Positions 7,961 to 36,931 of a DNA stretch of 36,931 nt are shown piece by piece. Every line of letters begins with the position of its first letter. Position 1 is the first letter of the stretch. The notes under the pieces were generated by a model. That model was not told the DNA's origin. It saw only the letters and a list, made by a program, of their open reading frames with translations, and did no database searches. The DNA is from Gemmatimonas sp. (GTDB lineage: Bacteria; Gemmatimonadota; Gemmatimonadetes; Longimicrobiales; Longimicrobiaceae). Location: the NCBI GenBank assembly GCA_009380025.1, contig WHSP01000028.1:1-36931 (forward strand), read 5' to 3'. The translations under genes and the position numbers were made by a program.

Positions 7961-8628
7961 TGTCCCAGCGGCTGAACGAATACTTCGCATCGGAAGCCAC
8001 GGAGTACCTGGAGCAGCTCGAGGGGCTCCTCGCCCTGCCCGAGGTCCCGGATTCCCATGCGCTGCTGCGCCTCTCCACCGGTGTCAGGGGGAGCGCGAAG
8101 ATGGCGGGAGCGGAGAAGGTCGCCGGCGTTGCCGAGCGCCTCGAGCAGGCCGTTCGCTCCCTCCGCTCGACTCGCGCCCAGTGGAGTGACGAGCTCCGCG
8201 ACGTTGCCAAGCAGACAGTGGCGGATCTCAAGATCCTCGTGCAAGCCCATCATTGGGGAGACGAAGAGGACCGACGCCTCGCGAACGTCCTTGGCCAGTG
8301 GGACCGCCTGGAGAATACCGGAGCCGGGGCGTCGCCCCAAGCCGTGTCGGTCTCGGCCTTGTTCTACGAAGGCTCCGGACCGCACCTGGTCGGGAAGGGC
8401 GACCGGGAGGTGACCGCCGCCGTCGTTGAGGAGCCCCCGGTCGTCAGCGTCGGAACCCTCCTCTTTCGCGGAGAGAGTGCCATCCGCCATGCGCTTTCAC
8501 TGCGGCCCGAAATCGGACGGGCGCTCTCCGACGGCGACAATGGGGGCCAACCTCTCTCGGCCATCCTCGACGAGCTCTTCGACCTGCTAGAGCTCGGGCT
8601 GACCGGCGACCCGCTGGAAAGTCGTTGA
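7960..8628 (+). CDS. HPt-like domain protein lacking the phospho-acceptor histidine
   Basis: A 222-residue protein. Its first ~95 residues have the helical pattern of an HPt/CheA P1 domain: YFASEATEYLEQLEGLL, then LLRLSTGVRGSAKMAGAEKV where the family has a His-x-x-Lys-Gly motif. Here the His position is Thr40 and the Lys is Arg, so phosphotransfer through this site is not expected. The C-terminal half carries two similar short motifs, VSVSALFYEG (129-138) and VSVGTLLFRG (162-171), separated by acidic linkers, and ends with a Leu-rich helix. The ATG overlaps the pdxJ stop. The last four codons and the TGA fall within the degenerate terminal repeat of the element at 8614-8795. The role may be scaffolding in signalling; this is inference. 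Confidence 0.75.
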   Translation: MSQRLNEYFASEATEYLEQLEGLLALPEVPDSHALLRLSTGVRGSAKMAGAEKVAGVAERLEQAVRSLRSTRAQWSDELRDVAKQTVADLKILVQAHHWGDEEDRRLANVLGQWDRLENTGAGASPQAVSVSALFYEGSGPHLVGKGDREVTAAVVEEPPVVSVGTLLFRGESAIRHALSLRPEIGRALSDGDNGGQPLSAILDELFDLLELGLTGDPLESR

Positions 8629-8795
8629 TAAATCACTCAGCTCTGCGTGGGGAAAGGATGCTTCCTTTGGTCGCCCGCCTCCTCGCCGTTCCCTGCGGAG
8701 CACAAGAGTTCGCCTCGCTCGCGGCTCGTCGCGCGCTTGACCTGCACGATTTCTCTTCGGCCTTCGCCCAACCCTGCTTATCAACAGTCTTCTAG
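8614..8795 (+). repeat. Dispersed CTAG-ended repeat (copy B), about 182 bp
   Basis: The left end CTGGAAAGTCGTTGATAAAT is a degenerate form of CTAGAAGGCTGTTGATAAAT. The interior carries the family core (CGCTCGCGGCTCGTCGCGCG, then TTGACCTGCACGATTTCTC). The right end TATCAACAGTCTTCTAG closes at 8795. Bases 8741-8767 are identical to window bases 1-27. The element fills the whole gap between the HPt-like and UPF0104 genes: its left end contains the stop codon of the first, and its right end is 4 nt before the start of the second. Confidence 0.85.
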
Positions 8796-25381: not shown

Positions 25382-25741
25382 ATGGATCAAACCCCGTTGG
25401 GGGATTGGGGCGAGCGCGTTGCAGCACGCCACCTCGAGAATGACGGCTGGACGATCCTCCACCGAAGGTTCCGAGCCGGACGGCAAGAGATCGACCTCAT
25501 CGCGAAGCGCGGCGAGGTCGTTGCTTTCGTGGAGGTCAAGACACGATCGACCCGCTCGTTCGGTCATCCGTTCGACGCGATCGATGGCAGGAAGCAAGCC
25601 GACGTCCGCAAAGCCGCCGAAGCGTGGATCCGGCATAACGGACGAGACGGCCTCACCTTTCGGTTCGACGCGATGGCCGTTCGCAAGGGAGAAAGCGGGG
25701 CGGTCGAGGTTGAGCATCTCCAGGATGCGTGGGGGTACTGA
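25382..25741 (+). CDS. yraN: UPF0102 (YraN) family protein
   Basis: A 119-residue YraN-family protein with an endonuclease-like (restriction-fold) core: LGDWGERVAARHLENDGW, RRFRAGRQEIDLIAKRGEVVAFVEVKTR with the Asp and Glu-x-Lys of the fold, and GHPFDAIDGRKQADVRKAAEAWI. The family has no settled function. The ATG at 25382 gives the normal length. A perfect hairpin (AGCGAAG, 25330-25336, with CTTCGCT, 25341-25347) lies 35 nt upstream in the 163-nt gap after smc. Confidence 0.92.
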   Translation: MDQTPLGDWGERVAARHLENDGWTILHRRFRAGRQEIDLIAKRGEVVAFVEVKTRSTRSFGHPFDAIDGRKQADVRKAAEAWIRHNGRDGLTFRFDAMAVRKGESGAVEVEHLQDAWGY

Positions 25742-25752
25742 GTCGTAACGAA

Positions 25753-25812
25753 AGAATGCCTCAGTCGTGGCTCGTGGCGCGCCTCGAGCTCCACGATTTT
25801 CCTGCGCCTTCT
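25753..25812 (+). repeat. Decayed fragment of the dispersed repeat (copy F)
   Basis: The segment GTCGTGGCTCGTGGCGCGCC followed by TCGAGCTCCACGATTTTC aligns, with scattered changes, to the core CTCGCGGCTCGTCGCGCGCC ... CTGCACGATTTCTC of the other copies. The terminal repeats are lost. It lies just after the yraN stop. Confidence 0.6.
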
Positions 25813-29422: not shown

Positions 29423-29925
29423 TGCCCCATCCGTCGGCAAGCTGGTCGTTCGAGGAGGAGGATGCCCGACGAATCGACCGGCTTCTTCGTTCCTTCCTGA
29501 AGGAATCGGGCTCCCGCAGCGCTTGCCTCGTGGATCGAACCGGCCAGCTGATCCTGTTCTCGGGCGAGCGGCCCGGGTTCGATTCGATCGCCTTCGCTTC
29601 CCTCGCCGCGGCCGATTTCTCGGCCAACGATCAACTCGCCGCCATGATCGGGGAGCAGGAGTTCGCCTCGCTCTTTCACCAGGGCGAGAAGGAATCCATG
29701 TACCTCGTCGACGTGGCGAAGCGCTTCATCCTGATCATCCTCTTCGATGAACGCACCACTCTTGGAATGATCCGCATCAAGGTCCGTCGCACCGTACGAG
29801 AGCTCGGTCGTGTTTTCACCGAGCTCTTCGATCGCGTCACGTCTCCGCGGGGCCTGCGGTCGTCTGAACCGACCTGGGCCGACGAAGCGGAGGAGGAAAT
29901 CGACCGTCTCTTCGGAACTCGCTAG
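29422..29925 (+). CDS. Roadblock/LC7 (MglB-like) domain protein
   Basis: A 167-residue protein with a Roadblock/LC7 domain at about residues 25-125: SRSACLVDRTGQLILFSGE, DSIAFASLAAADFSANDQLA, SMYLVDVAKRFILIILFDERTTLGMIRIKVRR. The last ~40 residues form an acidic helical tail. Roadblock proteins of this type act as GTPase-activating or -exchange partners of MglA-type small GTPases, and an mglA gene follows. The TAG stop is formed by the CTAG end of the repeat element at 29922-30074, which separates this gene from mglA. Confidence 0.85.
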   Translation: MPHPSASWSFEEEDARRIDRLLRSFLKESGSRSACLVDRTGQLILFSGERPGFDSIAFASLAAADFSANDQLAAMIGEQEFASLFHQGEKESMYLVDVAKRFILIILFDERTTLGMIRIKVRRTVRELGRVFTELFDRVTSPRGLRSSEPTWADEAEEEIDRLFGTR

Positions 29926-30074
29926 AAGGCTGTTGATCATCAAGGCTTCCGCGAAGGCCGAAAGGGTTATCGTGCGATCAAGGTGCGCGATGGGCGCGAG
30001 TGAGGGGTGCTTTCGTACGCTGCAGGGAGCGGAAACGAAACGCAGAGCTGCGCGATTTATCAACAGCCTTCTAG
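29922..30074 (-). repeat. Complete dispersed repeat with terminal inverted repeats (copy C), 153 bp
   Basis: This is the best-preserved copy, inverted relative to the others. It begins CTAGAAGGCTGTTGAT and ends ATCAACAGCCTTCTAG, a perfect 16-bp terminal inverted repeat bounded by CTAG on both sides. On the minus strand it starts CTAGAAGGCTGTTGATAAAT, then CGCGCAGCTCTGCG, as in the copy at 36808. It contains no gene and fits a non-autonomous MITE-like element. The ends GGCTGTTGATAAATC resemble IS5-superfamily ends (as I recall them for IS903). Confidence 0.9.
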
Positions 30075-31602: not shown

Positions 31603-32202
31603 ATGAATTCCGATTTTTTTGAAGAGCAGGATGGTGCTGAGGGGGCCTCGCAGGAGGGGGGTGCTACTGCTTCGCGGGAGGCAGCTCCAGAGGAGGTAGC
31701 GCCAGAACGGGAGGAAGCCGAAGAGGCTGAGGCGACCGAGGGCGACGGAGGTCCCAAGCTGTCAGAGGAGCTGGAAGCGCTCCGGGACCGCTATCTTCGG
31801 CTTGCCGCGGAATACGACAATTATCGCAAGCGGACGGAGCGGGAACGGATCGAGGGGCGGGATCGGGCCCAGGCGCAGCTCGTGGAGACGCTCCTCGAGC
31901 CGCTGGACGACCTGCAGCGTGTGGCTGGTTTCAAGGCCGAGAGCACGACCTTGGAGTCGCTGCTGGAAGGCGTTCGCATGGTCGAGCGAAAGCTGGTGCG
32001 GGCGTTGGAGGCGGCGGGGCTCGAGTCTCTGGAGGCGCAGGGCGAGCGTTTCGATCCGGAGCTTCACGAAGCATTGATGATGACGCCTACGGAGAAGGCC
32101 GAGGAGGATGAGACGGTGGGGGAAGTGTTCCAGAACGGATATCGTTTCCGGGGCAACTTGTTGAGGCCGGCGCGGGTTCAGGTCCGGCAGCACGGCGAAT
32201 AG
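31603..32202 (+). CDS. grpE: Nucleotide exchange factor GrpE
   Basis: A 199-residue GrpE, the exchange factor of the DnaK chaperone. An acidic, low-complexity N-terminal tail (about 1-55) precedes the long dimerisation helix (SEELEALRDRYLRLAAEYDNYRKRTERER) and the C-terminal beta domain with FDPELHEALMM and VGEVFQNGYRFRGNLLRPARVQV. The ATG at 31603 (MNSDFFEEQ) is preferred to an upstream start in non-conserved basic sequence. No CIRCE element or hrcA lies nearby. The TAG stop coincides with the left end of the repeat at 32199-32355, which separates it from dnaJ. Confidence 0.94.
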   Translation: MNSDFFEEQDGAEGASQEGGATASREAAPEEVAPEREEAEEAEATEGDGGPKLSEELEALRDRYLRLAAEYDNYRKRTERERIEGRDRAQAQLVETLLEPLDDLQRVAGFKAESTTLESLLEGVRMVERKLVRALEAAGLESLEAQGERFDPELHEALMMTPTEKAEEDETVGEVFQNGYRFRGNLLRPARVQVRQHGE

Positions 32203-32355
32203 AATGCCTTGATAAATCGCGCAGCTGTACGTTTCGTGCCCTCGCCGCTCCCCGCGGCGTACAGTCGTACGCCTCACTCGCGGCTCGTCGCACGGCTTGA
32301 TCTGCACGATTTCTCTTCGGCATTCGGGGAAGCTCGTTTGTCACCAGGCCTGCGG
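32199..32355 (+). repeat. Dispersed CTAG-ended repeat (copy A) between grpE and dnaJ
   Basis: The left end ATAGAATGCCTTGATAAATC matches CTAGAAGGCTGTTGATAAAT with a few changes and includes the grpE stop codon. The core CAGTCGTACGCCTCACTCGC, then GGCTCGTCGCACGGC, and CTGCACGATTTCTCTTCGGC match the other copies. The right end (GTTTGTCACCAGGCCTGCGG) is a decayed terminal repeat. It ends about 40 nt before the dnaJ start. Confidence 0.85.
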
Positions 32356-36807: not shown

Positions 36808-36931
36808 CTAGAAGGCCGAAGAGAAATCGCGCAGCTCTGCGTTGCGCTTCCTCGCCGCTCCCTGCGGTGTACAGTCGTACGCCTCACTCGCGGCTCGTCG
36901 CGCGCCTTGACCTGCACGATTTCTCTTCGGC
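36808..36931 (+). repeat. Left-hand part of dispersed CTAG-ended repeat (copy E)
   Basis: It starts CTAGAAGGCCGAAGAGAAAT followed by CGCGCAGCTCTGCG and runs through the core (CAGTCGTACGCCTCACTCGC) to the window end. The last 21 bases are identical to bases 1-21 and to 8741-8761. The left end differs from other copies: TGTTGAT is replaced by CGAAGAG, making it the exact complement of the internal CGATTTCTCTTCGGCCTTC. Confidence 0.85.

Follow-up and report, generated by a model that had tools for sequence, protein, structure and literature searches.

The repeats scattered along this 36,931-nt contig (hereafter the window, meaning the whole stretch of DNA analysed) belong to a discrete element that has sharp ends, a conserved core and a high copy number in several unrelated phyla. 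In our best reading, the element is probably an ERIC-like, non-coding, non-autonomous hairpin of ~120–180 nt that spreads in chromosomes, would be moved via a folded single strand, and persists chiefly between genes, in many cases at their stop codons. The original prediction had recognized a MITE-like repeat, a description that stands, and had missed the conserved folded core, its occurrence across phyla and its relation to ERIC.

Copies of the repeat in the window and across the genome

Contig C210, which the window covers in full, is one of the 478 contigs that make up a 5.02-Mb genome. All six places at which related copies had been proposed matched the sequence profile of the family (R1), with scores of 28–107 bits. 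The copy at 29922..30074 (+ strand; R1 102.6 bits, 29923–30073) is full length, carries perfect 16-bp inverted ends bordered on each side by CTAG, and directly follows a predicted gene that ends at 29925. A second full-length copy lies between grpE and dnaJ at 32199..32355 (− strand; R1 104.8 bits, 32203–32350), and the copy at 8614..8795 (− strand; R1 96.4 bits, 8617–8794) belongs to the long class, at ~178 nt. The six places are thus all real, and three of them are incomplete: 36808..36931 (− strand; R1 107 bits, 36809–36931) is cut by the contig end, 1..54 (− strand; R1 35.3 bits, 1–53, model positions 2–54) retains the left part of a copy that the contig start interrupts, and the place originally given as starting at 25753 is a degenerate fragment at 25738..25812 (− strand; R1 27.8 bits, 25738–25811).

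Within the four longer copies, a covariance model built from Gemmatimonadota sequences alone, with no ERIC among them (R2), located the folded core at 36824..36922 (− strand; 98.7 bits, E 4e-23), 32214..32312 (− strand; 77.2 bits, E 1.5e-17), 29967..30058 (+ strand; divergent and ERIC-like, 45.9 bits, E 1.8e-9) and 8653..8752 (− strand; 35.7 bits, E 8e-7).

Genome-wide, the model search that the original prediction had proposed returned at least 152 profile matches in the 5.0 Mb searched, a lower bound because 150 candidate stretches were scored in the profile search. The end sequence of the repeat occurred 110 times, versus once for a reversed control pattern. This corresponds to ~1 copy per 33 kb, so that the heavy load of one copy per ~6 kb deduced from the window was an overstatement: the first and last bases of the contig lie inside copies, and since repeats break assemblies, the high density in the window is partly explained by where the contig was cut. 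The same contig starts and ends inside copies illustrate how such repeats break metagenome assemblies. Three length classes were distinguished (~125 nt, 153–158 nt and 171–182 nt), with an insert containing GGGCGCCCGAAGGAAGCATCYGTTA in most copies of the longest class, and truncation was frequent. Overall, the description of a non-coding, MITE-like repeat with inverted ends and very high copy number was supported.

Ends, insertion and genomic placement

The perfect 16-bp terminal inverted repeats predicted for the copy at 29922 (CTAGAAGGCTGTTGAT and ATCAACAGCCTTCTAG, each flanked by CTAG) are present in the sequence, and the consensus of the element reads CTAG-AAGGCTGTTGAAAAACAGGCTGCGC-[long hairpin GAAGGCCG...CGGCC]-TT-CTAG. 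CTAG on both ends is a feature of the consensus, retained in just 3 of the 43 copies whose two ends could both be placed automatically; TA was found at the left end in 15 and at the right end in 14 of these, with ~2.7 expected per side. Matching flank pairs other than CTAG occurred in 1 of 40 copies in this genome against ~0.3 expected, and target-site duplication showed no excess above chance either here or in genome G203. The flank pairs CTAA/CTAA at L006 and CAAG/CAAG at L249 hint, without statistical support, at a 4-bp duplication.

The same ends also enclose another payload at L037, with L042 sharing the left end. These two loci (L037, 1343–1516, and L042, on contigs C4 and C22) represent a second small element with AGAAGGCTGTTGA ends and a different interior, which carries a TCATTCCCGCGAAGGCGGGAATCCAG palindrome and is dRS3-like. 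Minimal copies of ~30–36 nt (L051, L249 and L250) in the same genome have lost exactly the long hairpin, and they and the still shorter L057 have CTAG or CAAG as their boundaries. Other genera of the family have the inner part of the element and lack these ends; the terminal inverted repeats with CTAG are the lineage-specific part of the element.

Comparison of filled and empty sites supports the view that the repeat behaves as an insertion, at the level of species rather than strains. At grpE–dnaJ the element begins at the grpE stop codon and the gap is 184 nt, whereas among 18 relatives (one of which, G015, has an uncertain upstream frame) it ranges from −2 to 57 nt in 17 and is 142 nt in one; in a relative of the same genus it is −2 nt. 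An exact empty site was not encountered in any pair of strains.

Positionally, the copies are nearly all intergenic, with 3 of 44 lying within a predicted frame. Among ~65 true right ends, 31 bear the stop codon of a coding-like frame, compared with 6 of 29 left ends (Fisher p = 0.02); these stop codons are the TAG of CTAG, or CTGA, internal look-alikes having been excluded by eye. The right end abuts the 3' end of a gene in 29 of 40 copies here and in 13 of 15 in G203, and an orientation rule relative to genes (29 versus 9) is present in this genome and G203. Loci in other phyla displayed no such rule (15 versus 16), and a general orientation rule was therefore rejected in favor of one limited to this genome and G203. 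On the folded strand, GC skew near copies tends to be negative in five of five sets (96 versus 48 in total; the sets include G000, G203, G010, UBA6252 and other loci), which suggests a replication-linked orientation effect; the signal is weak, and gene direction is a partial confounder.

Targeting to the vicinity of tRNA genes was considered and rejected: 6 of 76 copies lay within 150 nt of a tRNA gene versus 1.9% of random positions, a modest excess that is uncorrected for intergenic bias. As a separate observation, all three copies detected in G023 are in stable-RNA loci, two in a tRNA cluster and one between the 23S and 5S rRNA genes (L099, L106 and L104).

A folded, strand-specific core

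Structurally, the original prediction of a long imperfect hairpin was borne out by folding of the consensus, which yields one such hairpin accompanied by a smaller one at the 5' side (as DNA, −46.7 kcal/mol with z = −5.9, matched by 0 of 200 shuffles). The core comprises an outer stem with a single conserved mismatch, the motif AAGGCG, tandem G.A loops and a GGCGTAC-loop-GTACGCC tip. Across 102 distinct sequences, 24 of 30 pairs have changed on both sides, paired cells amount to 89% compared with 30–41% in slid structures, and the covariation score is 0.39 versus 0.04–0.07; the alignment was fitted to the model and hence favors the model's pairs, but slid and shuffled controls fall far behind. 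The conserved fold belongs to one strand: G.U outnumbers A.C at paired positions (175 versus 46), and the GA-rich, folded strand is the more stable one in 83 of 88 sequences.

Genome G203 offers a view of this constraint within a single genome. Its 15 copies differ in their outer stems, which are complementary within a copy and much less so between copies (100 of 120 pairs versus 70 expected, a value reached in 0 of 5000 permutations); the stem has a sharp end, and a C.C mismatch is retained in 13 of the 15. Across phyla, a single C.C or G.A mismatch recurs, pairing falls to background ~15 nt outside the core, and the hairpin measures ~120–128 nt throughout; the copies here reach 153–182 nt because of the extra left arm and the insert.

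Evolutionarily, the core, of ~100 nt, is found again in about eight phyla, there lacking the CTAG ends. A search of relatives, as originally proposed, found it in 15 of 200 genomes of the phylum, a patchy distribution, and beyond the phylum as well, at 1 to at least 108 copies per genome. An exact pattern of the tip was found in more than 81 GTDB genome stretches among the matches listed, whose titles name, among others, Nitrospira, Syntrophaceae, Rokubacteria, Gemmatimonadetes, Actinobacteria, Bdellovibrionales, Bacteriovoracales, Myxococcales, Thermoanaerobaculaceae and Tectomicrobia; for the last two the fit to the structural model is weak, and as many records are metagenome-assembled, single placements could reflect contamination. 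The pattern fixed just the inner ~30-nt tip, and R2 recovered most of these places at full length.

Other searches returned nothing comparable: a 22-mer of the element's right end had no match in genome_contigs, the core had none in viral contigs or PLSDB, and Rfam 15 (4227 models) gave no overlapping match at gathering thresholds or up to E 5. Short sequence strings looked up in PMC full text matched primers alone, and longer strings matched nothing.

Relation to ERIC

ERIC elements (enterobacterial repetitive intergenic consensus, 127 bp, also called IRU or RU-1) have long been used in strain typing, and to our knowledge neither their mobilizing enzyme nor their origin is known. We took ERIC to be a candidate relative of the core and tested it by sequence; the ERIC sequence used is present in 5395 of 5426 E. 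coli genomes. When R2 was run against six ERIC loci, five of them were the five best matches (22.7–13.8 bits, the best other match scoring 12.3), aligned end to end and on one consistent strand, while one E. coli ERIC copy (L313) remained at background level with 8.4 bits. Reciprocally, a covariance model built from eight enterobacterial ERIC copies (R3) ranked cores as the top 3 matches in 423 kb, the top 7 in 57 kb and the top 10 in 63 kb, six of the last being copies from this genome. The top-ranked cores of the 57-kb and 63-kb sets all lay on the expected strand, with modest scores of 10–24 bits, and with default filters just two cores passed E 0.01 in the 423-kb search. When the same hairpins were scored on their opposite strands, which serve as a natural control for shape and composition, none exceeded 8.4 bits.

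The likeness to ERIC extends beyond model scores. Both are long imperfect hairpins, intergenic and of high and variable copy number, with the same order of motifs (an outer stem with one mismatch, AAGGCG, a paired SSS, a GAG.. tip stem and CGA..AGC.AACGCA) and TA at many termini, and covariance models match in both directions. They differ in that plain sequence identity is absent (high DNA identity to the 127-bp ERIC consensus was not found, aligned copies having motifs alone in common), in phyla, in the tip (GC-rich GGCGTAC here, GCTTAC in ERIC), in the 28-nt left arm and the 16-bp ends bounded by CTAG that the lineage studied here has in addition, and in duplication, which was not demonstrated for the present repeat. 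ERIC is known from Enterobacteriaceae and Vibrionaceae (PMC10969869), including V. cholerae and Y. pestis (PMC2267715), and is described with TA termini and a duplication, its transposase being unproven (PMC2229807). With a host in the Gemmatimonadota, outside Enterobacteriaceae and Vibrionaceae, the present element is best called ERIC-like and not ERIC proper. The ERIC of enterobacteria and vibrios appears, from these matches, to represent a single branch within a much broader family, and the interior of the present element, apparently a distant ERIC branch, would extend this kind of repeat to many phyla.

How the element may move, and alternative explanations

Mechanistically, we suggest that a trans-acting enzyme recognizing the folded single strand would help the element to move. 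Strand bias and orientation make single-stranded DNA the likelier form of that strand than RNA, and copying through it could give rise to the strand-specific constraint. In this genome, the core would have gained the 28-nt left arm and the CTAGAAGGCYGTTGA ends; because these ends are common to another small element, a second, IS-like route may also move the repeat here. A rival reading is that the repeat is an ordinary MITE of a DDE IS (IS5- or IS701-like), with terminal inverted repeats bound in trans, insertion at CTAG (YTAR), a 4-bp duplication and an irrelevant interior. The 16-bp ends with CTAG, the other payload and minimal copies within the same ends, and the two matching flank pairs agree with such an origin, and the repeat resembles IS5/IS701 MITEs in being non-coding, intergenic and rich in degenerate copies; IS701 duplications are exactly 4 bp (PMC2266710), and the right end of an IS701-type (PF13546) transposase remnant (L262, 1–1070, contig C5) adjoins CTAG. 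A search for a full IS with the same ends, however, found none at nine PF01609 places in this genome, and its IS701-type fragments have ends that do not match the repeat (a small multi-copy IS might be absent from so fragmented an assembly). With no matching IS and no demonstrable duplication, the original suggestion of IS5-superfamily-like ends is unsupported. Moreover, conservation across phyla lies in the folded interior and not in the ends, which in a relative vary between copies, each G203 copy having its own matched ends. We thus consider a plain DDE-IS MITE unlikely. The one intact IS observed, at L064 464–2160 (contig C105), has a 464-aa DDE transposase frame, ends TGTCTGTCTCAAAAC and apparently an 8-bp duplication (CTAGATAG) on its flanks; its ends are unrelated to those of the repeat. 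Chunjie, a 235-bp MITE that has ~95 full and partial copies in Geobacter uraniireducens (PMC10969869), is by description similar in high copy number, size variants of 178–235 bp, intergenic insertion and many partial copies, and is set apart by its clear direct repeats.

Alternatively, the hairpin could be a cis-acting RNA element of mRNA 3' ends, acting in stability, processing or termination and having multiplied by virtue of its usefulness, an idea put forward for Yersinia ERIC, which affects mRNA stability with orientation being crucial (review PMC2229807). The gene stop codons on about half of the right ends and the abutment of right ends to gene 3' ends in this genome and G203 would fit; yet in these two genomes the abutting mRNA usually bears the strand opposite to the conserved folded one, the orientation rule is absent from other phyla, and copies also lie in tRNA clusters and in a 23S–5S spacer, all of which leave a role in mRNA as a rather improbable account of the family. 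A mutational origin of the matched arms, in which template switching within imperfect palindromes copies one arm to the other without selection, draws on an established process in bacteria and on the exact loss of the long hairpin in the minimal copies. Conserved internal loops, the excess of G.U over A.C and a mismatch that 13 of 15 G203 copies retain at the same position and that recurs across phyla speak against it, and we give it little credence. Finally, REPIN/REP elements moved by RAYT (a Y1 HUH transposase) resemble the repeat in being repeated, intergenic, high-copy hairpins recognized as single strands, and a reverse-transcriptase retroelement might be entertained on similar grounds. 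The present element, however, is far longer than REPIN/REP, with a core conserved across phyla, and the carriers have no Y1 transposase or reverse transcriptase in common, several high-copy carriers having no detectable copy of either: with Pfam models, Y1_Tnp (PF01797) had no match in five genomes (G000, G010, G023, G203 and G133) and RVT_1 none in eleven (G203, G010, G023, G133, G065, G066, UBA6252 (G224), G228, G231, G225 and G242). Mobilization by RAYT or a reverse transcriptase was rejected on this gene content, and we regard it as very improbable.

Range of the family and its variants

A more ambitious and more tentative possibility, at which the data hint, is that ERIC belongs, as one branch, to a pan-bacterial superfamily, in at least nine phyla, of folded, strand-specific hairpins copied via a folded single strand, the responsible factor being something other than a Y1 transposase or a reverse transcriptase and possibly a widespread host enzyme. 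If so, the superfamily would span Gemmatimonadota, Nitrospira, Deltaproteobacteria, Rokubacteria, Myxococcota, Bdellovibrionales and Actinobacteria, and the mover of ERIC would become testable through gene co-occurrence over unrelated carriers, with the conserved loops and mismatch indicating which parts to mutate.

Variant arrangements were also observed. Cores are dispersed elsewhere; in Gemmatimonadetes Ww584 they stand in tandem with a 134-nt spacing (L144, 6789–7283, and L177, 1–478). A larger hairpin variant, with outer arms such as CATAAATACGGTGATGTACCGAGAG..CGTATTTATGGA, was seen at L123, L129, L139, L145 and L176, mainly in Actinobacteria and in one Gemmatimonadetes genome.
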